DNA of 64,000 nucleotides from Thermoplasmata archaeon (GCA_015063285.1 SUST01000008.1:1-64000), one strand, 5' to 3'. Counted from the stretch's first letter, positions 168 through 64,000 are shown. The notes: generated by a model not told the origin, from the sequence alone. Program-made: numbers and translations.

Positions 168-200
168 GAAGCTGTATGATATCGGAAAAATAAAAAGAGA

Positions 201-271: not shown

Positions 272-390
272 ATGTGTATTCGTGGGTAAGTACAACTATA
301 TTATAAAAGTGATGGCTGAGTGATCGGTCCCGACGCCAAGATTTGGATTTAACATCAATATTGATATCGTTTCAGGTACATCCCGAAGGC

Positions 391-1008
391 ATGACGGAAG
401 ACCTCAGCCAATGTGCCTGTCCTCACGGTGACAAAGGGAAGGAGACAATAGACGGGATGAATGAGGAGCATGTCCCTCAGATCACCTGGGGGCTGGTCAA
501 TCTTCCGGAAATCGAGCCAAAAAGGATCCTCGATATCGGCTGCGGCGGAGGGATCTTCACCAAGCTGATCCTGGAAAGATATCCCGAGGCCAAGGCCTGG
601 GGGATAGACATCAGCGAGGTCTCCATCGATTATTCGAAGAGATTCAATTCAGAGCTCATAGAGGATGACCGCTTGGAGCTCAGCATAGGGAATGTCGCCG
701 ATATGCCCTATGAGGACGACTTCTTCGATCTGATAGTCTCCAACGCCAGCCATTTCTTCTGGCCCAATCTCCCCGAGAATCTCAAGGAGGTCTCCAGAGT
801 ACTCAGAAAAGGCGGTATTCTGTGCCTGACAGTCGGAATACACACCACCGACCCCGCCGTTATCAGCGGGTACAAACAACAGTTCCCCTCTATGACCATC
901 GTATCCGACCACACCATGTTGGAATACATGGAAGATGCGGGAATGAGCTCGGAATACAAAGTGAAACCTGACAGCACCTTCTGCTGCTATATCGGAATCA
1001 GGAGATGA
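391..1008 (+). CDS. Class I SAM-dependent methyltransferase
   Basis: A Rossmann-fold methyltransferase of 205 residues. Motif I is ILDIGCGGGIF, motif II is the acidic strand end WGIDIS, and the later strand ends in FFDLIVSNASHFFW, followed by LPENLKEVSRVLRKGGILCLT, the usual post-motif region of small-molecule or ubiE-like methyltransferases. The substrate cannot be read from sequence. I start it at the ATG at 391 (MTEDLSQC); an in-frame TTG at 343 would add 16 residues and is less likely. The N-terminal Cys-rich CACPHG is a little unusual. The stop codon abuts the stop codon of the convergent MATE gene with no spacer. Confidence 0.8.
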   Translation: MTEDLSQCACPHGDKGKETIDGMNEEHVPQITWGLVNLPEIEPKRILDIGCGGGIFTKLILERYPEAKAWGIDISEVSIDYSKRFNSELIEDDRLELSIGNVADMPYEDDFFDLIVSNASHFFWPNLPENLKEVSRVLRKGGILCLTVGIHTTDPAVISGYKQQFPSMTIVSDHTMLEYMEDAGMSSEYKVKPDSTFCCYIGIRR

Positions 1009-2406: not shown

Positions 2407-2493
2407 GCATCGTCATTCCAGTATGATATTTATAGTAACACGTTTTTGAAATTAGTAATAACTAAAATTCCCGGGTCTCCCCGGGATTGGTTT

Positions 2494-4419: not shown

Positions 4420-4454
4420 GGTTTCACCCCTTCAGGGTTTATTGTTTAGTGATG

Positions 4455-4673
4455 TCAGATTTCGATCTCGCAATCGCTCTCTACTTTCTTACAGTTCTTG
4501 AGAACCTGTTTCATGACGGCATTGACGTCTGCTCCATCCTCGAACTCGACTGACATCTTCTGCATGACGAAGTTCACGGATGCGTTCTTGACACCCTCGG
4601 TCTTCTTTGCGGCGTCTTCCATCTTGGTCGCACAGTTCGCACAGTCAACTTCTATCTTGTAGGTCTTCTTCAT
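4455..4673 (-). CDS. Stand-alone HMA (heavy-metal-associated) metallochaperone
   Basis: A 72-residue ferredoxin-like metal-binding domain with the metal loop DCANCATKM (CxxC) near residue 11-14, then the KTEGVKNASVNF pattern of HMA domains. It ends in a small Cys/acid-rich tail (KKVESDCEIEI) that could add ligands. It probably hands metal to, or is the detached N-terminal domain of, the ATPase that follows 36 bases downstream. I start it at the ATG at 4673, because GGTGA (4680-4684) lies 6 bases upstream as a ribosome binding site; the in-frame GTG at 4682 overlaps that site. It is the first gene of the operon behind the ArsR-type operator. Confidence 0.88.
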   Translation of the reverse strand: MKKTYKIEVDCANCATKMEDAAKKTEGVKNASVNFVMQKMSVEFEDGADVNAVMKQVLKNCKKVESDCEIEI

Positions 4674-4690
4674 TTCATTCACCTTTCGCT

Positions 4691-4716
4691 AACAATTAAG
4701 CGTATGTTTAATTGTT
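4691..4716. promoter_or_regulatory. ArsR/SmtB-type 12-2-12 operator
   Basis: A 26-base imperfect palindrome in the short gap between the HMA gene and the divergent ArsR gene. The arms AACAATTAAGCG and TGTTTAATTGTT are separated by TA and match at 10 of 12 positions (the outer nine are perfect). The 12-2-12 layout is the known architecture of ArsR/SmtB/CadC operators, and a TATA-like ATATATAATA follows at about 4730. It is therefore the likely binding site of the 4770 gene product. The assignment is from symmetry and position. Confidence 0.75.
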
Positions 4717-4769
4717 ATATTCTGTTACATATATAATAATGTGGATAGGAAGATAAATCCATTAAACTA

Positions 4770-5183
4770 ATGCTTAATAATAAGAATAGTAATAACAGTC
4801 TGTTCAGTGGTACGATGACGGAGAACACATTGCCCCATGACCATGGGTCGATCAAAGATATTGAAGAATTCAGTAGACTCCTTTCCGAGAACAAAGGGTT
4901 CGACAATGTCTCCCGTACCTTGGCCCAAATGGTCGATGGTACGAGGATCCGTATCTTTTGGCTCCTCTGCCACTACGAGGGCTGCGTGATCAACATCTCA
5001 GCCATAATGGGGATGTCCAGTCCCGCGGTCTCCCACCATCTTCGCTCTCTGAAGGAGAGCGGGCTGATCGAAAGCAGACGCGTCGGTAAGGAAGTGTACT
5101 ACAAAGCGGTCGATTCCACAGAGGTCAGATTCCTTCACCACATGATCGAGGACCTAATGGAAATCACCTGTCCCAAACTCTGA
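4770..5183 (+). CDS. ArsR/SmtB family metal-sensing repressor
   Basis: A 137-residue winged-helix repressor. The recognition helix and wing read SSPAVSHHLRSLKESGLIESRRVGKEVYY, split over residues about 85-115, which is highly typical of ArsR/SmtB/CadC. LLCHYEGCVINI aligns with the alpha-3 metal site region of CadC-type sensors, with one of the two usual Cys retained there. HHMIEDLME near the C-terminus resembles an alpha-5 site, and the N-terminal PHDHGS could also supply ligands. It faces the HMA/ATPase operon across an 96-base intergenic region containing a 12-2-12 palindrome, so I infer Zn/Cd-responsive repression of that operon and of itself. The ATG at 4815 (MTENTLPHDHG) is an alternative start. 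Confidence 0.9.
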   Translation: MLNNKNSNNSLFSGTMTENTLPHDHGSIKDIEEFSRLLSENKGFDNVSRTLAQMVDGTRIRIFWLLCHYEGCVINISAIMGMSSPAVSHHLRSLKESGLIESRRVGKEVYYKAVDSTEVRFLHHMIEDLMEITCPKL

Positions 5184-5210
5184 TATTATCTTAGAATAAG
5201 ATAGAAAAGT

Positions 5211-5234
5211 CCAGGGCAGACAGGACCGCCCTGG
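5211..5234. terminator. Bidirectional hairpin terminator between arsR-like and peroxiredoxin genes
   Basis: The 7-bp stem CCAGGGC/GCCCTGG with a 10-base loop lies between two convergent genes. On the plus strand it is followed by GTTTTAG, and on the minus strand by a TTTT run, so it could end both transcripts. Confidence 0.6.
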
Positions 5235-5241
5235 TTTTAGA

Positions 5242-6060
5242 TCATGCCTTCTTCTTGGCAGGTGCCTTCTTTGCAGGAACTTTCTTAGCTGGAGCCTTCT
5301 TTGCTTTTGAGGGCTTATCCTTCTTGAAACACAGGAACCAATCGTAGCAGATCTTATCCGCTTCTTTGGTCTCGACCCTGTCCTTCGCGGTTCCGCAGGA
5401 TCCGGGTGCGGGAAGGATGACATCATCTCCAGGCCTCCAATCTGCAGGAGTGGCGACATTGTCGGCGTCCGCTTTCTGCAATGCGAGGATGACCCTCTTG
5501 ATCTCGTCGAAGTTCCTTCCGAGGGACTGGGGATAGTAGATCATTGCCCTGATCTTTCCGGCGGGATCGATGAAGAATACGGCCCTGACCGCCTGTGTGG
5601 TGGACACATGGGGTTGGATCATTCCGTACTTCTTGGCGACCTCCATCTTGATGTCTTCGATAAGAGGGAATGTGACCTCGATGTTCTTCATTCCTTTCCA
5701 CTCGATGTCTTGGATCTTCCTAAGCCAAGCGATATGAGCGTAGATGGAATCCACAGAGAGTCCGACGAGCTGAACATTGAGTGCCTCGAACTCTTTCATC
5801 ATATGACCGAATGTCATGAATTCAGTAGTACAGACGGGTGTGAAATCCGCAGGGTGCGAGAACAGGATGATCCACTTGCCCTTGAAGTCTCCCGGGAAGT
5901 TGATCTCTCCCTGTGTGGTGGTAGCTACGAACGAAGGTGCGTCATCACCTATCATCGGCGGCTTGTTCTGACAGCATTCGCATGTGCATCCGTCACAGCA
6001 TTCGCATCCCTTGGAGTTGTCGCAGCAGCATTCATCATCACATTTTGCTTTCTTTGCCAT
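5242..6060 (-). CDS. Peroxiredoxin with Cys-rich N-terminal extension and Lys/Ala/Pro tail
   Basis: A 272-residue AhpC/TSA peroxiredoxin of the Prx6-like archaeal type. The peroxidatic Cys77 lies in HPADFTPVCTTEF (PxxxTxxC) and the C-terminal pair sits in DKICYDWFLCF. It reduces peroxides in the cytoplasm. The ends are unusual. Residues 1-34 contain 11 Cys (positions 7, 11-13, 19, 21, 22, 25, 27, 29, 30), including CCC, CECC and CTCECC, like a metallothionein or a metal-cluster site. The last 27 residues are almost wholly Lys, Ala and Pro (AKKAPAKK repeats), a positively charged and probably disordered tail. I start it at the ATG at 6060, preceded by GAGGTAA. It is monocistronic with convergent arsR-like gene downstream. 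Confidence 0.93.
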   Translation of the reverse strand: MAKKAKCDDECCCDNSKGCECCDGCTCECCQNKPPMIGDDAPSFVATTTQGEINFPGDFKGKWIILFSHPADFTPVCTTEFMTFGHMMKEFEALNVQLVGLSVDSIYAHIAWLRKIQDIEWKGMKNIEVTFPLIEDIKMEVAKKYGMIQPHVSTTQAVRAVFFIDPAGKIRAMIYYPQSLGRNFDEIKRVILALQKADADNVATPADWRPGDDVILPAPGSCGTAKDRVETKEADKICYDWFLCFKKDKPSKAKKAPAKKVPAKKAPAKKKA

Positions 6061-6122
6061 GATATTACCTCGAATGCGAATCAAAGAGCATATTAGATAT
6101 AATTCGCTATAAGAATGTTGGA

Positions 6123-6613
6123 TTATTCATCCGTGTTACGAGGATTATGTATTGGACACTTCAATGCCCTATACACTACCTTGAACTCCGAATAAGAGAT
6201 AACGATCATCAGCAGACCACCTATTATTTCCGACACTGTGACGCCCCAGTAGACCCATTCCATGTCATGCAGAGTGCACAGCCAGATTATGCCTATGAAG
6301 ATTGCTTGACGTATGAAGATAGTTATCACGGAAATCTGACTTTTCCTCAGTGCACTGAGCAATGAGGAACCGAAAGTAATCAGCGCATAGAATATCATGA
6401 AAGGCACATAGATCCTCAAGACACGCACCAACTCATCATGCTGCTCGGCCATATCCCCTGAATAGCTGAACATGAACATCCAAAAGTAATGAATAATCTG
6501 AGTGTATGGTTGAAATCCGTGTCATTGTTCAAAACGTAACGTGCATACTCCACAAGACCAGGTACGCGATCTGACCAATACCTGTCAAAACCTTTCCTCA
6601 GTTCAGACACCAT
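6123..6613 (-). pseudogene. Remnant of a MATE family transporter (C-terminal part, frameshifted)
   Basis: The stretch 6123-6479 encodes about 118 residues that look like the last four membrane segments of a MATE protein: LRIYVPFMIFYALITFG, SSLLSALRKSQIS, then two more hydrophobic segments. It resembles the C-terminal third of the MATE gene at 1009-2406. There is no good start; upstream the reading is thrown into another frame (about 6416-6613) that carries a short leftover beginning MVSELRKGFDRYW. The N-terminal two thirds of the gene are absent. I read this as a decayed copy, with the intact MATE paralogue just upstream of it (7287-8693) pointing the other way. Confidence 0.65.
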
Positions 6614-8702: not shown

Positions 8703-10634
8703 ATGAAGAAAGAGATGAGTTCCTTCGATGTCCGTTCCATAGCGACGGAGCTGTCCTCCCTGGAAGGCGCACACATGGACAAGATCTTCCAATGGGGTGC
8801 AGGGAACGTTCTGTTCCGCATCAACGTCCAGGGCGAAGGAAAGAAGGATCTCTTCTTCAAAGATAAGAAATGGCTTTATTCCCCGGCGAACAAACCGGAG
8901 ACCCCAATCCAGCCGACATCCTTCGCCACTTACCTGAGGAAGTATCTGGACAACGCCCGCATAGGGAAGGTCAGACAGATAGGGTTCGACAGGGTCGTGG
9001 AGATGGAGCTCCTCAAGGCAGATGCAGAGTACAAGCTCATCTTCGAGATATTCGGAGGCGGTAACGTCCTTCTCGTGAAGGACGGAATCATCGACACCTG
9101 TCTCATCCAGAAGACCATGAGAGACCGTAAGGTTCGTCCCAAGGAACAGTATATCTGGCCTCAGCCCAGGTTCAATCCCATAGAGTCCTCCGAGGAGGAT
9201 TTCAAAAATGCCTTCAAAGAGTCTGAAGCCGACTGCGTCAGGACGCTCGCGACTGCAGTGAATCTCGGAGGACAGTACGCCGAGGAGGTCTGCAAGCGTT
9301 CAGGGGTGGACAAGACACTGCCTGCTCCCGAGGTCCCCGACGATATGCTGTCCAAGATGTATGCGGAGGTCAAGGATATCGTCAACCACGTGATCGATGT
9401 CCCCGAGACCACAGCCTACTACAAGGATGGGAAGATCGAGGACTTCGCACCTATCCAGATGATCTCCCACGATGACCTTGAATCCAAAGGGTTCGGTAGC
9501 ATGTCAGAGGTCATAGATGCTTTCGTCCAGCAGATGAAGGATGAGGAGGAAGAGGCCTACGTCGATCCCGAGATCAAGAAGCTCAACAGGAGGATCGCGA
9601 AACAGGAGGAGACCGTCCAGGAATACAAGGAGAGATGCGAAGAGCTGAAGAGAAAGGCCGAAGCCCTCTACTCCGACTACCAGAAGACGGCACAGCTGCT
9701 GGAGGTCCTCAACGAGCAAAGTCAGAAGCTCACATGGGAGAAGCTTAAGGAGGGAGCCATGAAGATATCCTTCGTGAAGAGCATCGACCCCTCCAAGAAC
9801 CTGGTCACGGCGGAATTGGCCAATGAGACCGTCACGCTCGATTACACCAAAGGTCTGGATGCCAACGCATCGGACATCTATCAGCAGAGCAAGGACATCG
9901 GAGAGAAGGGGAAGCATGCCGAGGATGCCCTCAACGACAGCCGCGCCGAACTGGCCAAGAAGGAGAAGGGCCTTGCCAAGCAGAAGGCGGCCATGACCGG
10001 TAAGGCTCAGCCCACCAAACAGTTCTGGTTCGAGAGATTCAAATGGTTCTTCACATCCGAGGGCAAGCTGGTCATAGCCGGAAGGGACGCCCACACCAAC
10101 GACGGTGTGGTGAAAAAGCACCTCAAGGAGAAGGACCTGTACTGCCATACGGATATCCACGGAGCACCTTCTACGATCATCAAAGACGGTGCATCCGCTT
10201 CCAACCAGGAACTTAGGGAGGCATGCCAATTCGCTACCGCCCAATCCAAAGGATGGGTGGGTGCGGTCACCGAAGGAAGCGCATATTGGGTGTATCCCGA
10301 TCAGGTCAGCAAGACCCCCAACCCGGGAGAGTTCGTTCCCCGCGGAGCTTTCATCATACGCGGTAAGAGGAACTATGAATACCACCTGCCGCTGGAGCTC
10401 GTGGTCGGAGAGATAGAATACCAGGGAACCAGGAAGGTAATGTGCGGCCCTGCATCGTGCTTCAAGGACTGCGAGAGATACTTCGTCATCCGTCCGGGGA
10501 AGAACAAGAATCACATATCCGGAGAAATGGCCAAGAGGTTCAACGTACCTGAAGAAGAGATCTCGAGAATCATGCCGCCGGGAGAAAGCGAGATCGTCAA
10601 AGAGGTCTGGCCCAAGGAAGCGCCTGAAGAGTGA
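8703..10634 (+). CDS. NFACT family protein, archaeal Rqc2/RqcH homologue
   Basis: A 643-residue protein with the full NFACT layout. The N-terminal NFACT-N domain (about residues 1-270, with FGGGNVLLVKDG) is followed by a long charged coiled coil (about 280-430). The C-terminal NFACT-R domain (about 440-560) contains WFFTSEGKLVIAGRDAHTND and later GAFIIRGKRNYE. Family members bind the large ribosomal subunit carrying peptidyl-tRNA after stalling and, in bacteria and eukaryotes, direct C-terminal tailing; the archaeal protein is expected to act in the same rescue pathway. The ATG at 8703 starts it. The TATA-like element about 29 bases upstream, inside the preceding MATE gene, suggests a nearly leaderless transcript. 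Confidence 0.92.
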   Translation: MKKEMSSFDVRSIATELSSLEGAHMDKIFQWGAGNVLFRINVQGEGKKDLFFKDKKWLYSPANKPETPIQPTSFATYLRKYLDNARIGKVRQIGFDRVVEMELLKADAEYKLIFEIFGGGNVLLVKDGIIDTCLIQKTMRDRKVRPKEQYIWPQPRFNPIESSEEDFKNAFKESEADCVRTLATAVNLGGQYAEEVCKRSGVDKTLPAPEVPDDMLSKMYAEVKDIVNHVIDVPETTAYYKDGKIEDFAPIQMISHDDLESKGFGSMSEVIDAFVQQMKDEEEEAYVDPEIKKLNRRIAKQEETVQEYKERCEELKRKAEALYSDYQKTAQLLEVLNEQSQKLTWEKLKEGAMKISFVKSIDPSKNLVTAELANETVTLDYTKGLDANASDIYQQSKDIGEKGKHAEDALNDSRAELAKKEKGLAKQKAAMTGKAQPTKQFWFERFKWFFTSEGKLVIAGRDAHTNDGVVKKHLKEKDLYCHTDIHGAPSTIIKDGASASNQELREACQFATAQSKGWVGAVTEGSAYWVYPDQVSKTPNPGEFVPRGAFIIRGKRNYEYHLPLELVVGEIEYQGTRKVMCGPASCFKDCERYFVIRPGKNKNHISGEMAKRFNVPEEEISRIMPPGESEIVKEVWPKEAPEE

Positions 10635-10691
10635 TCTCATATCGCGATTCAATACCTGTTACACATTGGTAGATTAACTAAGGTCCATGGA

Positions 10692-10698
10692 TTTATAC
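10692..10698 (+). promoter_or_regulatory. TATA box of the 10719 gene
   Basis: TTTATAC sits about 21-27 bases ahead of the ATG at 10719, the spacing expected when transcription starts at or next to the start codon (leaderless mRNA, common in archaea). Confidence 0.6.
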
Positions 10699-10718
10699 AA
10701 AAGACTAGATTACATCAC

Positions 10719-11102
10719 ATGGACGACATAAGATACAAGATCAACGTCGTTGCAGCCATAGCGGCCGTAGGTGCGATCATCGCATTCATTGGGTGCATAA
10801 TGTCATGGAATCAGTTCCCGAAGGCAGTCGGATTCATAGACATGGTGATCTACGGAGCGATGTCCTTCGTGGCCATTGCGAACATCAGGCCCACTACGAA
10901 GGCAAGGTCTGCCATCTGGAATGCATTCCTTGGGATCCTAGGAATAGCCGTCGCTGCAGTGAACTACGTACGCATAAACGATCTGGTCCCTGACGCATCA
11001 TCCTTCATGGACGTCGGTCTAGGAATCTGGCTGACATTCGCTGGAATCATCGTGTTCACGATATTCAGCTTCTCTGACTTTATGTTCAAGTGGAAGCAGT
11101 GA
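10719..11102 (+). CDS. Four-helix membrane protein, hypothetical
   Basis: A 127-residue protein with four hydrophobic segments (about residues 8-27, 38-55, 65-83 and 98-121) and a short charged C-terminus ending FKWKQ. I recognise no family motif. It is flanked by the NFACT gene and tRNA-Arg, has its own TATA box and seems to be monocistronic. The ATG at 10719 is the only sensible start. Confidence 0.7.
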   Translation: MDDIRYKINVVAAIAAVGAIIAFIGCIMSWNQFPKAVGFIDMVIYGAMSFVAIANIRPTTKARSAIWNAFLGILGIAVAAVNYVRINDLVPDASSFMDVGLGIWLTFAGIIVFTIFSFSDFMFKWKQ

Positions 11103-11162
11103 AACAACTTCCCCATTCATCGAATGGGGTAATTTTCTACAATAATTGACATCAAAAGGGTA

Positions 11163-11239
11163 TGGTGCCCGCGCCGGGATTCGAACCCGGGTCAAAAGAT
11201 CCGCAATCTCACAGGATATCCAAGCTACCCCACGCGGGC
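11163..11239 (-). tRNA. tRNA-Arg (anticodon GCG), CCA encoded
   Basis: On the minus strand there is an acceptor stem GCCCGCG/CGCGGGC, a D arm opening with GGGT, an anticodon loop TTGCGGA (anticodon GCG) and a T arm CCGGG/CCCGG with a TTCGAAT loop. The anticodon stem has a U-U mismatch at its top pair, so the fold is slightly weak. The discriminator A is followed by an encoded CCA (11163-11165). Confidence 0.82.
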
Positions 11240-11275
11240 AAAATCTGCGGTACCTTATGAAAGGTTAAGGCGTTT

Positions 11276-11467
11276 TCATGCCTCAGGGTGCGACAGGTAG
11301 CGGGTGATGTACCCGGCGATCCTGTTCCTCATCGTCACCGAAGAGACATCTGTGAGGGTTGCGACCATCTCCTTGTTGCCCTCGAAATCCTTGGTGAAAG
11401 CCTGAGGATATTTGTTGAGCAACTCGATGGAAACTCTCTTGATGTATGTGGGTCTGATTCTTCCCAT
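11276..11467 (-). CDS. rps17e: Small ribosomal subunit protein eS17 (S17e)
   Basis: A 63-residue ribosomal protein found only in archaea and eukaryotes. It opens with the family signature MGRIRPTYIKR and ends RMRNRIAGYITRYLSHPE-like (here TMRNRIAGYITRYL). It belongs to the 30S subunit. The start at the ATG at 11467 is fixed by homology and by GGTGAG at 7 bases upstream; longer readings upstream have no family resemblance. It is transcribed towards tRNA-Arg. Confidence 0.97.
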   Translation of the reverse strand: MGRIRPTYIKRVSIELLNKYPQAFTKDFEGNKEMVATLTDVSSVTMRNRIAGYITRYLSHPEA

Positions 11468-11694
11468 ATATCTCACCGAATGAACCCGATTAAGCCGATA
11501 CCCTATATAATACTTATTTAACAAAAAAATGGGTTTTTTCAGGCTTGCCAAGACATTGGCCTGTATAAAACTGACTACTCGGTCGAAGGTCTTTAACATT
11601 CCGTTTTTGAACTATTTTTGCTTATCTAAATAAATTTAGGATATCCTATAATTTTAATATCTGCAGACTTATCGCCGTTTAGAAAGGTGATTGT

Positions 11695-16178: not shown

Positions 16179-16856
16179 TCACTCATCTTCCTCGAAGACG
16201 AAGTCATCGTAGTCCTCGTCATCCTCTTCGAGATCGAGGACGTCGTACCTCTTTTTCCTGATCTTTCCGTAGATCCTGGTGATGTCCCTGGCCTCCGCGA
16301 CACCTTTCTTCACGAGGCTGTGCTTAGTCTTGATCGCATGGATCAGACAGTCAAAATCCTCGAAGGACAGCTGTGTACCGACAACGAACTCGTCGTCGGG
16401 CTCTGCCTCCACCCTGAGGGAGTATGTCCTGTCGTCATCGTTGACGGATACCTTGATGCTGAGGATGTCGAACTGCTTCACCCAGAGCTTCCTGACGTTG
16501 GTAGCCAGGGTCTTCTTCTTCAGTTTCCCGTCAAGTGTGTCGATGTGTGTGACGCAGACCCTCCTGCCGTCGTCGAGGAAGAACTCGTCCTCCTCCTGGA
16601 TGATGTCGTTGCTCTCGATGGTCGTCCTGGTGGTCTCAGAAACGTCTCCGTCGCTGAATACCACGGGGACCTCGATGAGCTCGGGAATCTTGATGGTCTC
16701 CGAGGAGATACGGTTGCATACCGTGCACCTGAATGTGCCCTCTATGGAGGCCTTGCCCATCCTCCCCTTGAGGATCTCGTGCTCGGTCTCCTCATCGCAG
16801 TCGGGACAATCGAAATAGATCGTTTCGGGCATCTCTCTCTTCAACATCTTGATCAC
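16179..16856 (-). CDS. HVO_0476-like archaeal zinc finger protein
   Basis: A 225-residue archaeal protein. Its N-terminal zinc ribbon is made by FDCPDCDEET and, 30 residues later, FRCTVCNRIS (two CxxC pairs), followed by a beta-rich region and a strongly acidic C-terminal tail (DLEEDDEDYDDF). It resembles the archaeal zinc finger family exemplified by HVO_0476 (COG1326); function unknown, perhaps nucleic acid related. The GTG at 16856 overlaps the TGA of the upstream MBL gene (GTGA), so translation is probably coupled. ATG codons at 16847 and 16832 (MPETIYFDC, close to where relatives begin) are alternative starts. Confidence 0.75.
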   Translation of the reverse strand: MIKMLKREMPETIYFDCPDCDEETEHEILKGRMGKASIEGTFRCTVCNRISSETIKIPELIEVPVVFSDGDVSETTRTTIESNDIIQEEDEFFLDDGRRVCVTHIDTLDGKLKKKTLATNVRKLWVKQFDILSIKVSVNDDDRTYSLRVEAEPDDEFVVGTQLSFEDFDCLIHAIKTKHSLVKKGVAEARDITRIYGKIRKKRYDVLDLEEDDEDYDDFVFEEDE

Positions 16857-17431
16857 TGGTCCGCCATGAACGGGAAACCATGTCCCGGTATGACCACATC
16901 TGCGTAGTCCCTTATCTTCTTAATACTTTCCAATGCCTGTTTCTCGTCGGTGTTGAGCTTGGGCGCTATGTTCTTTGTGAAGTTATCTTCCAACGGGACA
17001 GCATCCCCTGCGATGACATAATGCCTGTCAGCATCCACGAACACAGACATCTCCTCTGGACAATGACCTGGCGTGTGCACAAGTTTGACACCCTCGCACA
17101 GTTCGAATACGTCACTGTCCACCACCGTGGCGCCTGGGATCTCTCTATCGGCGCCGCTGTGGACATAGACTTTAGCCTTGGGGAACATGTCCAAATTCTC
17201 GATGTGATCCTCATGGGTGTGGGTCAGAACGACTATGTCCACATCCTTGATGAACACCCCTATCTGCTTGAACGAGGTCTTCAGGAACGGCTTCATGTAC
17301 TTCGTGCTGGGGTCGACCACGATGGTGTGCTTGGGGGTGCGGACCAGAACGGATGTGGAATCCGCCTTGAGTATCTTCCCATCGGGATCGCGCTCGAGAT
17401 AGCCTACCGCCAGGATGTCCAATTGGATCAT
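16853..17431 (-). CDS. MBL-fold metallo-hydrolase
   Basis: A 192-residue metallo-beta-lactamase fold protein with the metal-binding HTHEDHIE (HxHxDH), then HTPGHCPEE, the bridging Asp in YVIAGDAV and the final His in VIPGHGFP. It is likely a cytoplasmic hydrolase of a glyoxalase II-like or unknown ester substrate. I start it at the ATG at 17431 (MIQLDILAVGYL) because a TATA-like TTATAT lies about 25 bases upstream, which fits a leaderless message. A longer reading would run into the divergent HMA gene. It is coupled by a GTGA overlap to the zinc finger gene. Confidence 0.85.
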   Translation of the reverse strand: MIQLDILAVGYLERDPDGKILKADSTSVLVRTPKHTIVVDPSTKYMKPFLKTSFKQIGVFIKDVDIVVLTHTHEDHIENLDMFPKAKVYVHSGADREIPGATVVDSDVFELCEGVKLVHTPGHCPEEMSVFVDADRHYVIAGDAVPLEDNFTKNIAPKLNTDEKQALESIKKIRDYADVVIPGHGFPFMADQ

Positions 17432-17503
17432 AAGGTCGTATAGGCATGGGTGAGATATAACAAGCATGTTGAATTGAAATAACTCCGAAACGATACGGGT
17501 AGC

Positions 17504-17725
17504 ATGAGGATGGTCTTCTTCGTATCGGGACTCACATGTCAGGAATGCGCTGACAAGCTCGAAGCCCATATCCAGAAACAGCCGGGAGTCATCGGTGCAG
17601 CGCTAATGGTCACGGGAAAGTTCGTGATAGAGTGCGAGGAGGATAAGGCGGAGGCCATCGCCAATGAAGTATTGGTATCTGCGCCCAAGGCACAGGGGGC
17701 AGTTGTAGCCAAACGCATCCAATGA
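17504..17725 (+). CDS. CopZ-like HMA metallochaperone
   Basis: A 73-residue HMA domain protein with the metal loop GLTCQECADKLE (CxxC near residues 12-15) and the HMA core around KQPGVIGAALMVTGKF. It should bind Cu(I) or a similar metal and pass it to the ATPase two genes downstream, which has no HMA domain of its own. ATG at 17504, with a second in-frame ATG two codons later. The CsoR gene follows after 39 bases with a separate TATA box. Confidence 0.88.
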   Translation: MRMVFFVSGLTCQECADKLEAHIQKQPGVIGAALMVTGKFVIECEEDKAEAIANEVLVSAPKAQGAVVAKRIQ

Positions 17726-17734
17726 ATGATACTT

Positions 17735-17742
17735 TTTATAAA
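17735..17742 (+). promoter_or_regulatory. TATA box of the csoR-like gene
   Basis: TTTATAAA ends 22 bases before the ATG at 17765, a spacing that fits a leaderless transcript and supports that ATG over the one at 17777. Confidence 0.65.
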
Positions 17743-17764
17743 GAGTGCCGATTAATCACGATTC

Positions 17765-18037
17765 ATGAGAGAGTGTATGGACTCTGAAAACCTGCACAGG
17801 CGCCTCAAGAAGATTAGCGGACAGGTGGCTGCAGTTGACCGTATGATTGACGAGGATGTTCCCTGTGAGGACATCATGATCCAGATCAACGCGATAAAGA
17901 GTGCCATTCACAGCGTTGGCCAGATTGTTCTGGAGGGTCACATTAGGCACTGCGTCAAAGATGGTATAGAGCACGGTGATGCGGAGAAGACCATCGAGGA
18001 GTTCGCCGAAGTCATAAGGCAGTTCTCAAAGCTCTGA
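17765..18037 (+). CDS. csoR: CsoR family copper-sensing repressor
   Basis: A 90-residue all-helical metal-sensing repressor of the CsoR/RcnR (DUF156) family, opening with the basic helix HRRLKKISGQVAAVDRMI. The Cu(I)-binding triad C-H-C is present at Cys34, His59 and Cys63, with exactly the spacing (25 and 29) of the known CsoR triad, which argues for copper rather than nickel or cobalt. It should leave DNA when Cu(I) binds. The gene lies between the CopZ-like gene and the ATPase, and a CsoR-like box is found directly after it in front of the ATPase. Confidence 0.92.
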   Translation: MRECMDSENLHRRLKKISGQVAAVDRMIDEDVPCEDIMIQINAIKSAIHSVGQIVLEGHIRHCVKDGIEHGDAEKTIEEFAEVIRQFSKL

Positions 18038-18058
18038 TTTTGAAGAGTATTTATACCC

Positions 18059-18076
18059 TATACCCCCTATGGTATA
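18059..18076. promoter_or_regulatory. CsoR operator overlapping the ATPase promoter
   Basis: An 18-base site with perfect 6-base arms TATACC and GGTATA around a CCCTAT centre, closely like the GC-centred TATACCC-type boxes bound by CsoR. A TATA-like TTTATACC (18050-18057) lies immediately upstream, so bound CsoR would block the start region of the ATPase transcript. Confidence 0.8.
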
Positions 18077-18089
18077 GCGGTAATGTAAA

Positions 18090-19940
18090 TTGACGTTAGT
18101 GGATACTTTCAAGTCCGAATGGATCGCATTGACAACAATCGGAATATGCATTGTTTTGGTATTACTGGCAGCTATTTTTTCAGATCTATGGTTCCTGCCG
18201 ATCGTCGCTACGTTGATGTGCAGTATCACCATTATAAAGGAGATCATCTCAGACATCCGCAGGAGCGAGATCTCGGCAGTGATGCTTGCCACTGCAGCCC
18301 TGATAGCAGGACTCATTCTCGGCGAGTACATAATCGCGGCTGAGATTGCAATAGTGATAGCCATCGGAAGCCTTTTGGAGACCGTGGTGGCTGACCATGC
18401 CACATCCAGCATTCAAGCTCTCGGTAAGGTGAAGACGCAAAGGGCTCACGTGATAAACGGGAACAATATCTACAACCTTCCTCTCGAAGACGTCAGAGTC
18501 GGTAAGCACATCCGCGTCTATCCAGGTGAGATAATACCCCTAGATGGTATAATCATCCAAGGGGACACTTCCGTTGACAAATCGATTATGACCGGCGAGT
18601 CCATCCCTGTCGACGCTGGTATAGGTGATGAAGTGTTCTCAGGCACCTGCAACCTCAACGGGACCATCGATGTAGAGGTCACCAGATGTGATGCGGACGG
18701 CATGCTAGGTCACATGTCGTCTCTGCTCAAATATGCCGATGCAGGAAAGAACAGGATAGTTGGAGCAGCCGACAGGTGGGCAAAGTACATTCTTGTGGTT
18801 GCAGCCGTTCTGACCGTCGGTACCTGCCTGATCACAGATGACCTGCGCCGCGGAATGACCATCATGATGGTCCTGTGTCCCTGTGCATTCGTCCTGGCTA
18901 CCCCTGCCGGAATCATGGCGGCCGCCATGAACATGGATAAGAACAACGTTCTTCTGAAGGAACCTTCTTCGATCGAAGGGATGAACAAAGTGGACATGAT
19001 CCTCTTCGACAAGACCGGCACTCTGACCTCTGGAGTCATCCATTCCCTTGGATTCACAAACGTTTCAGAAGATATGTCCTCTGAGAGAATAGTAGGACTC
19101 GTTGCATCGCTGGAATCCCGTTCTGAGCATCCACTTGGGATGGCCATCTCAGCGGATTACGAACAGATCGGACATGTCGAAGAATTCACGGACATACCTG
19201 GAAAGGGTGTGAAGGGAATCGTTGACGGCATCCGCATAGCGGCCGGGAACGCCGACCTCATGTCTTCCGAATCACCGATAGGGTTAGAGAATGCCATGGC
19301 GGCTACGAAGGAATCTTCCTGCACCATAGTGTATATAGGTATCGACGACAGATGCGTCGGATTCTTCAGTCTTGAGGACACTTTGAAAGAATGCGCACAT
19401 TCCACCGTAGAGGAATTGGAGGGAGAGGGACTCAATACCGTCATGCTCACAGGGGACAGCAAGGTCGTGGCCCAGAAGACCGCAGATCGCTTGGGGATCG
19501 ATCTCATCGTTTGGGATTGCAAACCGGAGACCAAACTCAGTTCCGTGGAAGAGTTCGAAAGGACCGGCCGCACATGCATGCTCGGAGACGGTATGAACGA
19601 CGCTCCGTCGTTGGGAAGAGCGACCGTCGGAGTATCGATGGGGATCATGGGCAACGATGTGTCCGTGAAGGCATCGGACATTGTGCTGCTGAATGATGAC
19701 ATCTCGAAGATCCCGGGAGTCTACAGGCTGTGCAAACGTTCCGTGAAGACGATATTTGCCAGCGTCATAATCGCAATGATCATCAGCGTCGCAGGTGCGG
19801 TCTTGGCCATATCGGGAACTGTGGACCCAATCATGGTCTCAACGGTGCACATCACCAGCTCCGGCATAGTGATGCTGGCCGCATCGACGCTGCTCTGGGC
19901 GAAGATATGGTCTCCCGAATATCAGGGCAAGAATCAATAA
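18090..19940 (+). CDS. P1B-type heavy metal ATPase, probably copper
   Basis: A 616-residue metal-pumping ATPase: four N-terminal membrane segments, MTGESIP in the actuator domain, the CPC metal site in MVLCPCAFVLATP, DKTGTLT, the P1B mark SEHPLG, TGDSK, and GDGMNDAPSLG. The last membrane segment reads VSTVHITSSGIVML, not the Zn/Cd pattern of the pump at 2494. With CsoR and CopZ neighbours, Cu(I) export is the best reading. It lacks an N-terminal HMA domain. The start is uncertain: a TTG at 18090 or a GTG at 18099, both just downstream of the promoter and its CsoR box, which implies a leader of only a few bases. The methyltransferase gene follows at 22 bases. Confidence 0.9.
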   Translation: MTLVDTFKSEWIALTTIGICIVLVLLAAIFSDLWFLPIVATLMCSITIIKEIISDIRRSEISAVMLATAALIAGLILGEYIIAAEIAIVIAIGSLLETVVADHATSSIQALGKVKTQRAHVINGNNIYNLPLEDVRVGKHIRVYPGEIIPLDGIIIQGDTSVDKSIMTGESIPVDAGIGDEVFSGTCNLNGTIDVEVTRCDADGMLGHMSSLLKYADAGKNRIVGAADRWAKYILVVAAVLTVGTCLITDDLRRGMTIMMVLCPCAFVLATPAGIMAAAMNMDKNNVLLKEPSSIEGMNKVDMILFDKTGTLTSGVIHSLGFTNVSEDMSSERIVGLVASLESRSEHPLGMAISADYEQIGHVEEFTDIPGKGVKGIVDGIRIAAGNADLMSSESPIGLENAMAATKESSCTIVYIGIDDRCVGFFSLEDTLKECAHSTVEELEGEGLNTVMLTGDSKVVAQKTADRLGIDLIVWDCKPETKLSSVEEFERTGRTCMLGDGMNDAPSLGRATVGVSMGIMGNDVSVKASDIVLLNDDISKIPGVYRLCKRSVKTIFASVIIAMIISVAGAVLAISGTVDPIMVSTVHITSSGIVMLAASTLLWAKIWSPEYQGKNQ

Positions 19941-19961
19941 GCGGGCGGTACATCCACCATC

Positions 19962-20534
19962 ATGGAATACGATCCCGAGATACGCATCGAGAGCGACCCC
20001 GACGTCTATCCGCCTTCGGACGACAGCATCCTCTTCATCCAATCGTTGGATGTGAAGGAAGGGGAGAAGGTACTCGAGATCGGATGCGGTTCGGGAGTGG
20101 TCTCCATACACTGCGCCAAGAACGGATGCGATGTCACCTGCGGCGACATAAACCCGAAGGCCGTGGAGCTGACAAGGAGGAACGCTGAACTGAACGGCGT
20201 ATCGCTGGATGTCCATGAGACCGACGTCTATTCCGATATCAAAGACAGGTTCGATACCATCTTATTCAACCTGCCTTACCTTCCCGTCGATGAGGACGGC
20301 CTCTTGGCAAGGTCTTGGTCTGGAGGGCCTGACGGACTAGGTCCCCTCCCCGACCTCCTTGAAGGAGCGCCGGAGCACCTGACGGGAAACGGCAGGATAG
20401 TTATCGTCATCTCTTCCCTGATGGACACCCAGGCTCTCTGGGACCTCCTGGATAGATATGAAGTATCGACATTGGGTGAGCTCAAACTGTTCTTCGAGAA
20501 ACTAGCCGTATTGCAGATCAAATCAAAAGCGTGA
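19962..20534 (+). CDS. HemK/Mtq2-type methyltransferase
   Basis: A 190-residue class I methyltransferase with motif I VLEIGCGSGVVS and the NLPYLP motif typical of N5-glutamine (HemK/PrmC/Mtq2) methyltransferases. Near the N-terminus it has VYPPSDDSILF, also a family block. Archaeal and eukaryotic homologues methylate the GGQ motif of the class I release factor together with a Trm112-like partner; this is the expected role here. It is a short form without the bacterial N-terminal domain. ATG at 19962, 21 bases after the ATPase stop codon. Confidence 0.88.
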   Translation: MEYDPEIRIESDPDVYPPSDDSILFIQSLDVKEGEKVLEIGCGSGVVSIHCAKNGCDVTCGDINPKAVELTRRNAELNGVSLDVHETDVYSDIKDRFDTILFNLPYLPVDEDGLLARSWSGGPDGLGPLPDLLEGAPEHLTGNGRIVIVISSLMDTQALWDLLDRYEVSTLGELKLFFEKLAVLQIKSKA

Positions 20535-20625
20535 ATGATTCGTTCTACTAATCACTGGTCTGGATGACATAGTGATCCTCAACAATGGACAGTCTGGTAC
20601 AGTGATAGCGAGGTGAGAACACACA

Positions 20626-21608
20626 TCAGGATTGTGAGATCTTCGTCCTCACATTGTCTCTGATATCCTCAGGTACTAATGCCAAGGCATCATCGAGTGT
20701 CCAGCCTTTCTCAACAAGCGTTTGTACAGTCTTCAAGTAATCCTCAACCTTCTGCTGTACTTGTTGCTGTACCTGTTGCTGTACCTGATCGGAAGTGAAC
20801 AGCCCATTCTCTTCCATATAATCCTACATGCGATCGCACATTATCTCTTCGTCCAATGTTGTATCATCGATGATCATGGAAAGCTTAGTCACCCCTTTGA
20901 TTAGATATTCTGATTTCTCAATATTATAGTATTCTCCTAGAAGTCTGATACGTTCAGAAGCATCGATATTCCTTGTAAATAGGATATTTAACAGGCCCAA
21001 CATACCATCTTTGAAGTCAAATCTATCGCCTATGTTAACCTCTATGATTTCCATCAGATTACAATTGCTGTCGTTTGAAGTGTTATTCCCATAAATTGTA
21101 TCTGCTACCATATGATGCCTGACTATCGAATTCATAGAATCCTTACGGGAGAAAGCATCAACCAGATACTATACACCTTATTCATCTTCTCATAATGCTC
21201 ACCCTTGAAGTATTTGCCCTTCTGGTCATGGATCATAGTTGAAGTGTAGTACAAGGCACGGTTTCCCATAGGGTAGCCAAGTCTCCTCTTTGCCTGTCCC
21301 TCCAAATTAACTTCAATGTTTATAGGTTGATTTCCAGGTATCCTCAATTCAAATAGAACATCAAGCCTTATCCCTGAGCCGTCAGGAGTTGGCAATTCCT
21401 GCTCCAACTTAATGATTCTATCCCCTTCCTTCTCCAACGGAAGATAACTTTTGATCACTTCCGGTTCAAGACCATTCAGTTCGGTAATAAGCGGACCTAA
21501 CGTGTGCGATAATATATCGGCCAGAGACATTACTTCTTTGAAAGCATTGTCTAATTTGTTATTCCTCAGTGTTTCCTTTTCATCAATACTGTCATTTCCC
21601 ACTACCAT
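20626..21608 (-). pseudogene. PD-(D/E)XK (Rpn/transposase-like) nuclease, broken by a frameshift and an in-frame TAG
   Basis: Read from 21608 downward, the protein starts MVVGNDSIDEKET and contains the nuclease core RLDVLFEL followed by INIEVNLEGQ, as in the Rpn recombination-promoting nuclease / putative transposase family. The frame stops at 21132, and the same protein resumes one frame over (KDSMNSIVRHHMVADT) near 21135-21145. That frame meets a TAG at 20824-20826 and, still in frame, continues with DYMEENGLF, a QVQQ repeat and a helical tail to the TGA at 20626. The TAG could be a nonsense mutation or could be read as pyrrolysine. With the frameshift included, decay is the simpler reading. 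The start at 21608 (GGAG upstream) is tentative; 21674 is possible. Confidence 0.7.
20753..20788. repeat. Three tandem 12-bp units in the nuclease gene tail
   Basis: The unit TGCTGTACCTGT is repeated three times, with a single base change in the first copy (TT for CT) and one in the last. On the minus strand it encodes QVQQ repeats of a helical C-terminal tail, typical of variable tails in this nuclease family. Confidence 0.8.
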
Positions 21609-21704
21609 TCTCGCAACTCCGAAGAATCGTTGGGAGATGATGCTATAATGCCATATTAGATTGTGAGCCGACATTCTAAGGTCTAGGGATGTGTGGTGAA
21701 TACA

Positions 21705-59701: not shown

Positions 59702-59830
59702 AGGGGACGTATCGTTTTACAATAGAAAAATAGTGCTGTTTACAATCAGTAAAGTGTGCATCATTCCAGAATAGCGGCCCAACATCCTCCCACATAAACA
59801 GTTTTTATCTGTGTTAACGATTTGTAAACT

Positions 59831-61480
59831 ATGGATTACATCGCAGTTGTCGAATGTGTTTCCTCGGGAATTCTCTACATCGACGAGATAATCGCCCATG
59901 GGTGCAAACCGTTGATCGTCAATACCAACATCAAGACGAATGATCTGGACAATTACAGGAGGATGCTCCGCGAAATCCTCAAGGACAAGGCAGAGTTCCT
60001 GGACGAGGGCGAGGACTTCGATACCCTGGTGGAGAAACTCCGCAGATTCAAGATAAAAGCGGTGTTTCCAGGAAGCGAATACGGAGTACGTCTGGCGGAT
60101 CGTCTGACCTCAGCTCTGGGCCTCAAGGGGAACGATGAGAAGACCACATATCTCCGCTGCACAAAAGCTGGTATGCATGAAGCCCTGGGCAAAGCTGGAA
60201 TCCGCAGGATTGAAACTGAAGAAGTGAACAGCGAATCTGATATCGGAGAATTCTGGAGAAAGAACAATCTTGACAAATGCGTTCTTAAATACTCCGAATC
60301 GGCGGCAACCGTCGGTCTTAAGATATGTTCCTCTGTAGATGAGGCGGTCGAGCACTACAGGCTCATGAGGAGTACTGCAAACTACAAGGGCGATATCGAT
60401 TCCGACATCTTGATTCAAGAGTACATCTCGGGTACGGAGTACATCGTGAACACACTCAGCTGTGACGGCAGACATATGCTAACTGACGTTTGGTCATACG
60501 CCAAGATACAGGCCGGAGACGGTACCCTGGCCTATGACTACGCAAAACTCGTCAAGGACCTGGAGCCGGGCCACATCGACATGATCCGCTACGCATACAA
60601 GGTGTTGGATGCAGTGGACATGAAATGGGGGCTCTGCCATATCGAGATCAAGATTGATCGCAAAGGACCCGTTCTGATAGAGACGAATGCACGTCCGATG
60701 GGTCTGGCGATGACCGCGTCGTATTTGGACGAAGTGCTGGGGTATCACCTGACCGACCTGGCCATAGAGACGTACTTCCGTCCTTCGGCCTTCAACAAAT
60801 ATATCCACAGGGTCTACAACCCGCCAAAATACGCACTGATGAAACTCCTAATCGTACCTGAGAAGATCAAAGGCAGCTTCGGACCCACGTTCCTCTTCTC
60901 CAATCTCATCCGCAGCACCAGAGAGATACTGTTCTTCGGCAAGGAAGAGGTATCCACCTACCCTCGTACGATAGACCTTGAAACCTGCCCCCTCGTCGTG
61001 AAGATGGTCAACCAGGACTACGGCGCTCTCATGAAGGACTATGAAATGCTCAGACAGATTGAGTCCAATTACTTCCATCTGCTATACTCCAGCAACAACA
61101 ACGTCCCTGCAGTGGAGCCCCACACTGACATAGAGGGCATAATCAAGACCCTGTATCCGAGCTGGAGATTCTGCGTTGTGACGGATGAGGGTGTGTCGAT
61201 AGCCCAAAATGGAAAAATGACGGAATTGGATAACTGGAGCATATTCGACGGTGCGATATACGCCAAATGTGGTAAAGACACCACAGAAGAAAGATGCCGC
61301 ACCATATACAGGACGATTCTGACAGTCAGATCCGGAGGGACGTTCATCATCGTTCCTGAATCGTTCAGCGCCATGGAGGATGGTTCTGTTATCGTCGAGT
61401 TCATCATGAATATAGCCGGCGTGCATGTCATCGCCCCGTCGTACGACTCCAACGGTTTGATCTATGGTCTGAAGAAATGA
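59831..61480 (+). CDS. ATP-grasp enzyme, probable carboxylate-amine ligase
   Basis: A 549-residue protein. The pre-ATP-grasp domain (residues 1-100) starts MDYIAVVECVSSG. The ATP-grasp core (about 115-310) has the ATP-binding KYSESAATVGLKI and QEYISGTEYIVNTL, and the metal-binding LCHIEIKI with GPVLIETNARPMG (ExN). An extra C-terminal domain of about 200 residues (350-549) shows no family I know. The core is like L-amino-acid ligases of the BacD kind, which join carboxylates to amino acids through an acyl phosphate. The adjoining MFS gene overlaps by 4 bases, a layout also seen in the bacilysin genes. A TATA-like TTTTTATC sits about 27 bases upstream of the ATG. The product is unknown. Confidence 0.8.
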   Translation: MDYIAVVECVSSGILYIDEIIAHGCKPLIVNTNIKTNDLDNYRRMLREILKDKAEFLDEGEDFDTLVEKLRRFKIKAVFPGSEYGVRLADRLTSALGLKGNDEKTTYLRCTKAGMHEALGKAGIRRIETEEVNSESDIGEFWRKNNLDKCVLKYSESAATVGLKICSSVDEAVEHYRLMRSTANYKGDIDSDILIQEYISGTEYIVNTLSCDGRHMLTDVWSYAKIQAGDGTLAYDYAKLVKDLEPGHIDMIRYAYKVLDAVDMKWGLCHIEIKIDRKGPVLIETNARPMGLAMTASYLDEVLGYHLTDLAIETYFRPSAFNKYIHRVYNPPKYALMKLLIVPEKIKGSFGPTFLFSNLIRSTREILFFGKEEVSTYPRTIDLETCPLVVKMVNQDYGALMKDYEMLRQIESNYFHLLYSSNNNVPAVEPHTDIEGIIKTLYPSWRFCVVTDEGVSIAQNGKMTELDNWSIFDGAIYAKCGKDTTEERCRTIYRTILTVRSGGTFIIVPESFSAMEDGSVIVEFIMNIAGVHVIAPSYDSNGLIYGLKK

Positions 61481-62883
61481 ATGAAAGTGACCTCCCGAAA
61501 GGTACGCTGCTTACGCTGATAATCGTGTTCCTAGTCGCATTAATAGACGGCTTGGATGTCAGCATAGTCTCGATCGCCCTTCCCACCATCACCGAAGATA
61601 TGGACGTCACATTATCCCAATCTTCTTGGTTCATATTCTCCTATGTGCTCGGACTTGCTGCCCTGCTACTGCCCTTCGGAAAGATGGCAAAGAACAACCG
61701 CGTTAAAAGATTCATTATCTGGGGGACCATCATTTTCGGCGTATCATCTCTGATGTGCGCCCTGTCTACAAACTTCTGGATGCTTGTCGCATTCAGACTC
61801 ATACAGGGTATGGCGGCGGCCATGATGAGCTCCGCTCTGCCGTCCATAATAGTGCACATGCTCCCTGTTGACCGCAAAGGGCTGGGCATGTCCGTCATGG
61901 GCGCATCTTCCGGTATCGCCCTGATAGCTGGACCGGTCCTCGGAGGTTTCCTCACCTCCACATTCTCTTGGCATGCGGTGTTCCTCATCAACGTACCCAT
62001 ATGCCTGCTTATCGTTGTAATGGTATCCTACCATCTGCCATCCGACGGCACTCCTGACCGCAGCAAGGACCCTTCATACATAGGAGGTCTGTCAGCGATG
62101 ATATTCATCGGCTCCATGCTGACGATTCTGGAGGATCTCGGGGACCCCGACCTCAACACCGTAGGAAAGATCGTGTGCGGGATACTCATGGTAGTATCGC
62201 TGATCATCCTCATAGCCGTCACACGCCGCGATATGAGCAGAGCGGTCATCGCTCCGAAGATGCTATTCAATTCGGAATATTTCATAGTGGGAATGTCGTT
62301 CCTGTTGTGCACTATCGTGGTGGCCGGAGCCAACTACCTTCTGCCATACATGCTTCAGGAATACTGGGGCATGGAACCGATGCTGTCCAGCCTTTACCTT
62401 TCCGCCATCTCGGTGGCCATGGTGATCACCGTCCTTCCTGTCGGCGGACTCTGCGACAGGTTCGGATGTAAAGGACCGGTCATGGTCGCGGTCATCATGA
62501 GGTCCCTGTTCTGCATCCTGATGATCGTGATGGTAGTGGATAATGCAGAGCCGTACCTGCTGTTGCTGCCTTTGATAGCGTTCGGAGTATCCCATGCATT
62601 CTCCGGAACCGCCCAGCCTACCCGTATGATCCATCATGCTACCCCGGGATATGAGGATGAAGCTACCAACTTCATGCTAGTGGTCAACTATGTGGCCAGC
62701 GCACTCGGGTGTGTGCTATTCGCTCTGGTCTATTCCATCACTTCAAATGCGGACATACATACCGAATACCTGCCTGCACTCGCCAACGGTTTCATAGGCA
62801 CCATGTGGTTCTCCCTGATCCTCCTGCTGGGTGCGATGATATGCACCCTCATCGTGAAGAACAAGATAATCAAGAAAGAATGA
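61477..62883 (+). CDS. MFS exporter, DHA2 (14-segment) type
   Basis: A 468-residue transporter with about 14 membrane segments. The opening LIDGLDVSIVSIALPTI is the DHA2 (EmrB/QacA) motif D1 region, GKMAKNNRVKRF the loop 2-3 motif A position, and SGIALIAGPVLGGFLT the antiporter motif C (GPxxGG). It should export a small molecule with proton antiport. It starts at the ATG at 61477 overlapping the ATP-grasp stop (ATGA), so the two are made together and the exported compound may be the ligase product. Confidence 0.92.
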   Translation: MNESDLPKGTLLTLIIVFLVALIDGLDVSIVSIALPTITEDMDVTLSQSSWFIFSYVLGLAALLLPFGKMAKNNRVKRFIIWGTIIFGVSSLMCALSTNFWMLVAFRLIQGMAAAMMSSALPSIIVHMLPVDRKGLGMSVMGASSGIALIAGPVLGGFLTSTFSWHAVFLINVPICLLIVVMVSYHLPSDGTPDRSKDPSYIGGLSAMIFIGSMLTILEDLGDPDLNTVGKIVCGILMVVSLIILIAVTRRDMSRAVIAPKMLFNSEYFIVGMSFLLCTIVVAGANYLLPYMLQEYWGMEPMLSSLYLSAISVAMVITVLPVGGLCDRFGCKGPVMVAVIMRSLFCILMIVMVVDNAEPYLLLLPLIAFGVSHAFSGTAQPTRMIHHATPGYEDEATNFMLVVNYVASALGCVLFALVYSITSNADIHTEYLPALANGFIGTMWFSLILLLGAMICTLIVKNKIIKKE

Positions 62884-62901
62884 CTAGCCAGTTGCAATAA
62901 G

Positions 62902-62909
62902 ATTATATT
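62902..62909 (+). promoter_or_regulatory. TATA box of the EamA gene
   Basis: TTATATTA in the 49-base gap lies 23 bases before the ATG at 62933, so this gene can be transcribed separately from the ATP-grasp/MFS pair. Confidence 0.6.
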
Positions 62910-62932
62910 ATTGAACTCTTCCCCATGCAATA

Positions 62933-63832
62933 ATGAAGGAATTGATCAACAGTGGCAACGCGAAGCTCATGATGATCCTCGCGATGTCCCTGTTCGGAAC
63001 ATTGGGTGTCTCCACCTATTTCATCGACCTGCCTGCCAGCATCATCGTGGTAGGCCGCGGTCTGATAGGTGCATCGTTCCTTCTGATCCTGATCCGCTTC
63101 AGCGGGTCCAAGCTCTCCAAGGACGACATCTACGGGAACATGTTCACACTGACATGCTCGGGTATCTGTCTGGGGCTGAATTGGCTCTTCCTCTTCGAAG
63201 CATACAAGAGCATAGAGATATCCGTTGCCACCGTCCTGAACTACCTTACTCCGGCCATGGTCATCCTGATCGCTCCCCTGGTGTTCAAGACCAAGCTTAC
63301 ATTCATAAAGCTCGGATGCGCGTTGCTTGCGCTACTGGGATTGGTTTTGGTCACAGGCATACTGGAGAACGACACGGAGGACATCAACTACTACGGACTG
63401 ATCTGCGGAGTTCTCGCTGCAGTCTTCTACACCGGACTGGTGGTCTTCAACAAGAAACTGAAGAGCATAGGCTCCTACGACAGGACCTTCGTCCAGCTGC
63501 TCATCGCCGGTATCGTCGTTGCGGTATACAGCCTATTCACGGTAGACTTCGGTTCGCTCCATCCTGATACGCTGTCCATCGTACTGCTGGTCGTCATCGC
63601 AGTTTTCCAAACAGCCATAGCATTCACGCTATACTTCGGATCGCTTGCTCATCTAGATGCCCCGACCGCCGTGATGTACGGTTACATAGAGCCTGTCATC
63701 AGCATAGCCCTCAGCGTCATCATACTGCATGAGGATCTGGGCATCATCGGATGGATCGGCGCGGCCCTGATCCTTGGCTCGACCTTCCTTTCCGAGATTC
63801 TGAGCAGAAGAAGGGAGCGCCAATCCGCTTGA
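62933..63832 (+). CDS. EamA/DMT family exporter
   Basis: A 299-residue drug/metabolite transporter with ten membrane segments in two EamA repeats (about 10-140 and 155-290). The first contains VATVLNYLTPAMVILIAPL and the second APTAVMYGYIEPVISIALS, the duplicated P/E-containing helix of the family. It may export amino acids or related metabolites. It follows the MFS gene by 49 bases and has its own TATA box. The start is the ATG at 62933. Confidence 0.92.
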   Translation: MKELINSGNAKLMMILAMSLFGTLGVSTYFIDLPASIIVVGRGLIGASFLLILIRFSGSKLSKDDIYGNMFTLTCSGICLGLNWLFLFEAYKSIEISVATVLNYLTPAMVILIAPLVFKTKLTFIKLGCALLALLGLVLVTGILENDTEDINYYGLICGVLAAVFYTGLVVFNKKLKSIGSYDRTFVQLLIAGIVVAVYSLFTVDFGSLHPDTLSIVLLVVIAVFQTAIAFTLYFGSLAHLDAPTAVMYGYIEPVISIALSVIILHEDLGIIGWIGAALILGSTFLSEILSRRRERQSA

Positions 63833-63924: not shown

Positions 63925-64000
63925 GGGCCTGTAGCTCAGCTAGGTGGAGCACTCGACTCTTAATCGAGGTGCCAAGGGTTCGAATCCCTTCAGGCCCGCC
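63925..64000 (+). tRNA. tRNA-Lys (anticodon CTT)
   Basis: Acceptor GGGCCTG/CAGGCCC, D arm GCTC/GAGC, anticodon stem CTCGA/TCGAG around CTCTTAA (anticodon CTT), T arm AAGGG/CCCTT with TTCGAAT. The discriminator G and the first two bases of CCA are the last bases of the window. Acceptor and T arms equal those of tRNA-Lys(TTT) at 45739. Confidence 0.96.

Follow-up and report, generated by a model that had tools for sequence, protein, structure and literature searches.

A ligase and exporter gene pair in a Thermoplasmata archaeon, with an L-amino-acid-ligase-type enzyme that carries an additional C-terminal domain

A 64,000-nucleotide stretch of DNA from a Thermoplasmata archaeon, a gut methanogen (GCA_015063285.1, SUST01000008.1:1-64000; hereafter the window), contains an ATP-grasp ligase gene that overlaps an MFS exporter gene. 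We read the pair as a mobile two-gene accessory unit, consisting of an L-amino-acid-ligase-type enzyme and the exporter of its product, with a probability of about two in three. The reading is built on the gene structure, the family and catalytic residues of the ligase, a pairing conserved in relatives, and an empty site in related genomes. The features concerned are the following.

59,831–61,480, + strand: ATP-grasp ligase, 549 aa, with an L-amino-acid-ligase core (residues ~1–417) and an extra C-terminal domain (~420–549)
61,091–61,477, + strand: extra C-terminal domain of the ligase, residues 421–549, without a Pfam family, Rossmann-like
61,477–62,883, + strand: MFS exporter (DHA2/EmrB-like), 468 aa, in ATGA overlap with the ligase, a partner kept in relatives
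62,933–63,832, + strand: EamA transporter, 299 aa, a neighbour outside the ligase–MFS unit
59,709–62,900, no strand: apparently inserted ligase–MFS segment, approximate extent against the empty site in genomes G054, G055 and G058
63,925–64,000, + strand: tRNA-Lys (CTT), belonging to the old EamA neighbourhood

The three open reading frames lie where a preliminary description of this DNA had placed them. The ligase stop is at 61,480 and the MFS start at 61,477, the two frames sharing ATGA, and 49 bases (62,884–62,932) separate the MFS gene from the EamA gene on the same strand. Pfam matches are ATP-grasp_4 (2.7e-9) for the ligase, MFS_1 (3.4e-50) and EamA (1.7e-32). The best NCBIfam model for the MFS protein is EmrB (TIGR00711), at 156 bits against a cut-off of 230.

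Over residues 1–417, the nearest named NCBIfam models of the ligase are PRK07206 (8.6e-73) and DdaF (8.9e-39). Its scores are below the cut-offs of both the PRK07206 subfamily (NF005543; 245 bits against 302) and the dapdiamide A synthase equivalog (NF041595; 133 bits against 840), and none of the dapdiamide genes of the DdaF system lies beside it. Among solved structures, the L-amino acid ligase 30vh is closest in sequence (PDB, 1.3e-40). An AlphaFold2 model made from an alignment of 60 homologues has a mean pLDDT of 91.6, and when it was searched against the PDB with Foldseek, ranks 1–6 were taken by BL00235, RizA and BacD, with 12–16% identity in the fold alignments. BL00235 (3vot), RizA (4wd3), BacD/YwfE (3vmm) and 30vh have the same fold and domain order over residues 1–417 and the same ATP and metal residues as the window ligase, which differs from them by the extra 130-aa C-terminal domain. 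With its best matches among the BacD/BL00235/RizA type in both sequence and fold, the protein is supported as an L-amino-acid-ligase-type enzyme, in line with the earlier comparison with BacD.

K112, K153, E203, H270, E272, E284, N286 and R288 are invariant among the 60 homologues. Fold, two ATP-binding lysines, an E...ExN metal site and a Pfam match above its cut-off place the core in the ATP-grasp superfamily of carboxylate-amine ligases, and the ExN metal site described earlier is confirmed as the motif E284-T-N286, invariant in the same homologues. In an HMMER alignment, E272, E284, R288 and L292 correspond to BacD E311, E324, R328 and W332 after a correction of two residues by which the chain is numbered ahead. 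The counterpart of the catalytic arginine R328 of BacD is R288, present in all 60 sequences. The W332 position is leucine in the window ligase and mostly Gly, Ala or Leu, also Ser, in the family, so pocket sizes probably differ among its members. Counting against the ligase–exporter reading, characterized ligases share no more than about 30% identity with the core, the NCBIfam scores fall below the cut-offs, and ATP-grasp enzymes can switch substrate class while the fold stays.

In the proposed reaction, the ATP-grasp enzyme would use ATP-Mg to phosphorylate a carboxylate on either an amino acid or a small acid, the acyl phosphate would be attacked by an amine, itself an amino acid, to form an amide, and the translationally coupled MFS protein would export the amide product. 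The ligase most likely forms amides independently of NRPS and is paired with the exporter of what it makes; the product may be dipeptide-like. Nothing else biosynthetic was observed next to the pair, so either ordinary cell metabolites would serve as substrates or genes at other sites would supply them. Several products could exist, because ligases of this kind can have broad specificity, as exemplified by PnaC (PMC11867202).

The ligase is present in 10 of the 102 Methanomethylophilaceae genomes, to which the wider order (147 genomes) adds none. At nine Methanomethylophilaceae loci the MFS gene adjoins the ligase gene, lying downstream on the same strand in the window's own genome (G000), G058, G004 (contig C116), G091 and G064 (C52), divergently in G018 and G019, and upstream in G074 and G077. 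A second ligase in G004 (C289) is an orphan, which counts against the pairing, and the ligase in G061 has its upstream side cut by a contig end. MFS homologues of at least 56% identity were found only in ligase genomes, where they adjoin the ligase. The pairing suggested earlier is therefore that of a two-gene unit kept in relatives. A second MFS protein of the window's own genome (L150; G000:C3:105645-107009) is 42% identical to the ligase partner and has no ligase beside it.

Ligase–exporter pairing has precedents in BacD–BacE and HilD–HilE (PMC3684760). The window ligase and its MFS protein are likened to BacD with the exporter BacE, and in the Pantoea Hil operon a PF13535 ligase (HilD) adjoins an MFS gene (HilE), as in the window. 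The dioxygenases and reductase with which the Hil operons make an unusual amino acid, on the other hand, have no counterpart at the window (PMC3684760).

The ligase belongs to a large, unnamed, rumen-associated family of bacteria and archaea. Scanning a single genome for each species gave 151 relatives, and the best 79 of the 151 loci were read; among these, the relatives are mostly 555–570 aa long and keep the tail. The family is hosted by Methanobrevibacter, Lachnospiraceae, Selenomonas, Prevotella, other Bacteroidales, Treponema, Fibrobacter and Synergistales, and nearly all relatives that name a source, in titles or isolate names, come from ruminant or horse gut. In an unrooted tree, one branch (100/99) sets the Methanomethylophilaceae sequences apart and another (100/100) those of Methanobacteriota, with Bacillota and Spirochaetota relatives intermixed. 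In one Methanobrevibacter genus, 26 of 67 genomes contain family members, as many as eight matches in a single genome, some of them broken. In one Methanobrevibacter genome, four copies lie next to one another (G492:C1:1009230-1016289), and elsewhere on the same contig (G492:C1:1575064-1578918) is a second run of three shorter, tail-less copies of ~425 aa, one with an internal stop codon. No plasmid-borne homologue among the matches listed extends past residue 426, and the more distant plasmid ligases of 420 aa have an MFS-type gene beside or near them in four of the five examined.

Because the gene caller misreads some GC-rich loci (L152, for example), exporter counts were repeated by tblastn. 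An exporter then adjoins 35 of the best 79 of 151 loci, being MATE at 22, MFS at 11 and ABC at 2. By gene calls, exporters occupy 29 of 140 flanking positions versus 8 of 312 genes farther away, for which the P value of 7e-10 is overstated because the family loci are related to each other. The objection that homologues are not linked to exporters elsewhere thus fails in this survey, while more than half of the loci, again among the best 79 of 151, have no recognized adjacent exporter, which counts against the ligase–exporter reading.

In a Lachnospiraceae cluster, the ligase is accompanied by a STAS–APH fusion, another ATP-grasp protein, a 470-aa protein and two phosphatases, one a tyrosine phosphatase and one of the SpoIIE type, joined in some loci by ABC exporters. 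NRPS-similar proteins, as judged by similarity grouping, occur within five genes of the ligase in eight loci, with one neighbour confirmed by Pfam, and the neighbours in Prevotella and several further loci are housekeeping or unrelated genes. The M. ruminantium NRPS mru0068 is reported to lie near a MatE exporter, serine phosphatases and an anti-sigma antagonist (PMC2812497), so the surroundings of the wider family are of the same kind. More generally, neighbours as described for the M. ruminantium NRPS clusters mru0068 and mru0351 (PMC2812497) recur in similar form around the Lachnospiraceae and Methanobrevibacter ligases, with the difference that the ligase stands in place of the NRPS or alongside it. 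Regulators of this type (phosphatase, anti-sigma antagonist) are absent beside the window's pair.

Several neighbours were observed apart from this comparison. No Pfam family matches the ~470-aa protein, whose gene comes after that of the ligase in eight Lachnospiraceae/Eubacterium loci (L033:10940-12343; relatives in L028, L052, L059, L072 and L076). The MATE protein beside bacterial and Methanobrevibacter ligases has a C-terminal tail of ~120 aa (L065:11683-13425; L088:2746-4464) that resembles an RsbW-type anti-sigma kinase fold, Pfam finding MatE only. At L050 (spans 1-6508, 10001-11689 and 16403-21652), a Methanobrevibacter locus, the ligase lies between two NRPS-like genes, and a nitrogenase-component-1-type protein (Pfam Oxidored_nitro) is found beside it.

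The pair could instead serve detoxification, in that the ligase would conjugate a toxic amino acid or a foreign amine or acid from the gut and the MFS protein would expel the conjugate, no bioactive product being made for others. Such a role would suit a locus of only two genes with no other biosynthetic genes beside them, an MFS protein of the EmrB multidrug type, and a patchy, mobile distribution of the ligase; the ligation step of the bacilysin and Hil pathways has also been suggested to protect the producer itself (PMC3684760). However, wider-family members accompanied by NRPS genes and SpoIIE/STAS regulators are in a biosynthetic-cluster setting like that of the M. ruminantium NRPS (PMC2812497), and wider-family members multiply within genomes. 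We consider detoxification unlikely and retain synthesis and export of an amide as the preferred reading.

The extra C-terminal domain had been described as about 200 residues long, spanning 350–549. The domain exists, but that span is too long. Residues 350–416 are ordinary ligase because PRK07206, DdaF and 30vh align to about residues 411–417, and since the core ends near residue 417 in all comparisons, the extra part covers about 420–549, or ~130 aa. L-amino acid ligases are usually ~410–470 aa long without a further domain, which is typical but not strictly defining; the window ligase departs from this architecture with 549 aa and its domain at 420–549. With a tail absent from known relatives, it is a new architectural variant of L-amino acid ligases.

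Pfam and PDB sequence searches gave no convincing match for the tail. When cut out and modelled alone (AlphaFold2, 60 sequences), it is well modelled, with a pLDDT of 90.9, and its top Foldseek matches in the PDB come almost entirely from class I SAM methyltransferases, although they are weak (best E value of 0.0028, TM-scores of ~0.3–0.45). These matches would favour an active SAM methyltransferase and hence a bifunctional ligase-methyltransferase. However, 59 of the 60 tail sequences lack the D/E-x-G-x-G motif I, the glycine-rich loop that binds SAM, the tail has ~130 aa versus 170–280 in the matched methyltransferases, and the match scores themselves are low, making an active methyltransferase very improbable. 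The model reads rather as a cut-down or degenerate class I methyltransferase-like fold without SAM chemistry, and our guess is that the tail would serve substrate or partner recognition, docking or assembly.

A rumen survey reports that, among methanogens, NRPS clusters occur only in Methanobrevibacter genomes (PMC8241843), and ATP-grasp goes unmentioned in it; in the literature library searched, no paper mentions L-amino acid ligases, ATP-grasp and the rumen together. The ligase–pump pair contains no NRPS genes. If it makes a secreted compound, the Methanomethylophilaceae would join the gut small-molecule producers, and the Methanobrevibacter copies of the family would be candidates for archaeal–bacterial chemistry in methane-producing communities. 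A tentative extension, to which we give somewhat less than an even chance, is that the family represents a class of peptide or amide synthases that work without NRPS and have yet to be described, marked by a methyltransferase-like tail lacking SAM chemistry. Such enzymes, found in at least six phyla of rumen archaea and bacteria and multiplied within genomes, would make secreted small molecules acting between gut microbes, and in Methanomethylophilaceae the system would be reduced to ligase and pump.

That a housekeeping ATP-grasp enzyme (PurD, PurK, CPSase or a cofactor ligase) stands beside a transporter by chance is highly improbable: the ATP-grasp fold is common to both and a purD model matches at 2.7e-9, but L-amino acid ligases score far better and outrank PurD, PurK and CPSase in sequence and fold, a profile of the 60 homologues placing 30vh (3.4e-69), BL00235, BacD and RizA above PurD and biotin carboxylases, and the ligase is confined to 10 of 102 family genomes with a partner MFS protein that co-occurs with it.

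G054, G055 and G058 have the order DUF2188 gene, EamA and tRNA-Lys (CTT), with the same further neighbours, without the ligase–MFS pair at this site; in G058 the pair sits on a different contig (C36). The DUF2188 gene and EamA are only ~70 bases apart in G054 and G055. Because the order is kept without the pair in these relatives, the pair appears to have been inserted as a segment of about 3.2 kb. The tested insertion flanks share no run of 8 bases or more that could be a target-site repeat. A phage origin was considered and rejected, as no phage record matched and viral contigs gave only four weak, core-only matches.

The preliminary description had proposed a two- or three-gene route, of which the two-gene ligase–MFS part stands and the third gene, EamA, does not. 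One export operon of all three genes is hardly credible. EamA is on the same strand as the pair after a 49-base gap, and some Hil operons contain both MFS and RhtA-type exporters (PMC3684760), but the pair has no EamA homologue after it in G058, G004, G091 and G064, and the three relatives above keep EamA beside tRNA-Lys without the pair. The three-gene version thus appears wrong and is already largely refuted by gene order. EamA also has its own TATA-like box, TTATATTA, ~28 bases before its start in the window; in G054 and G055, TATATAAAC lies ~20–25 bases before the EamA start.
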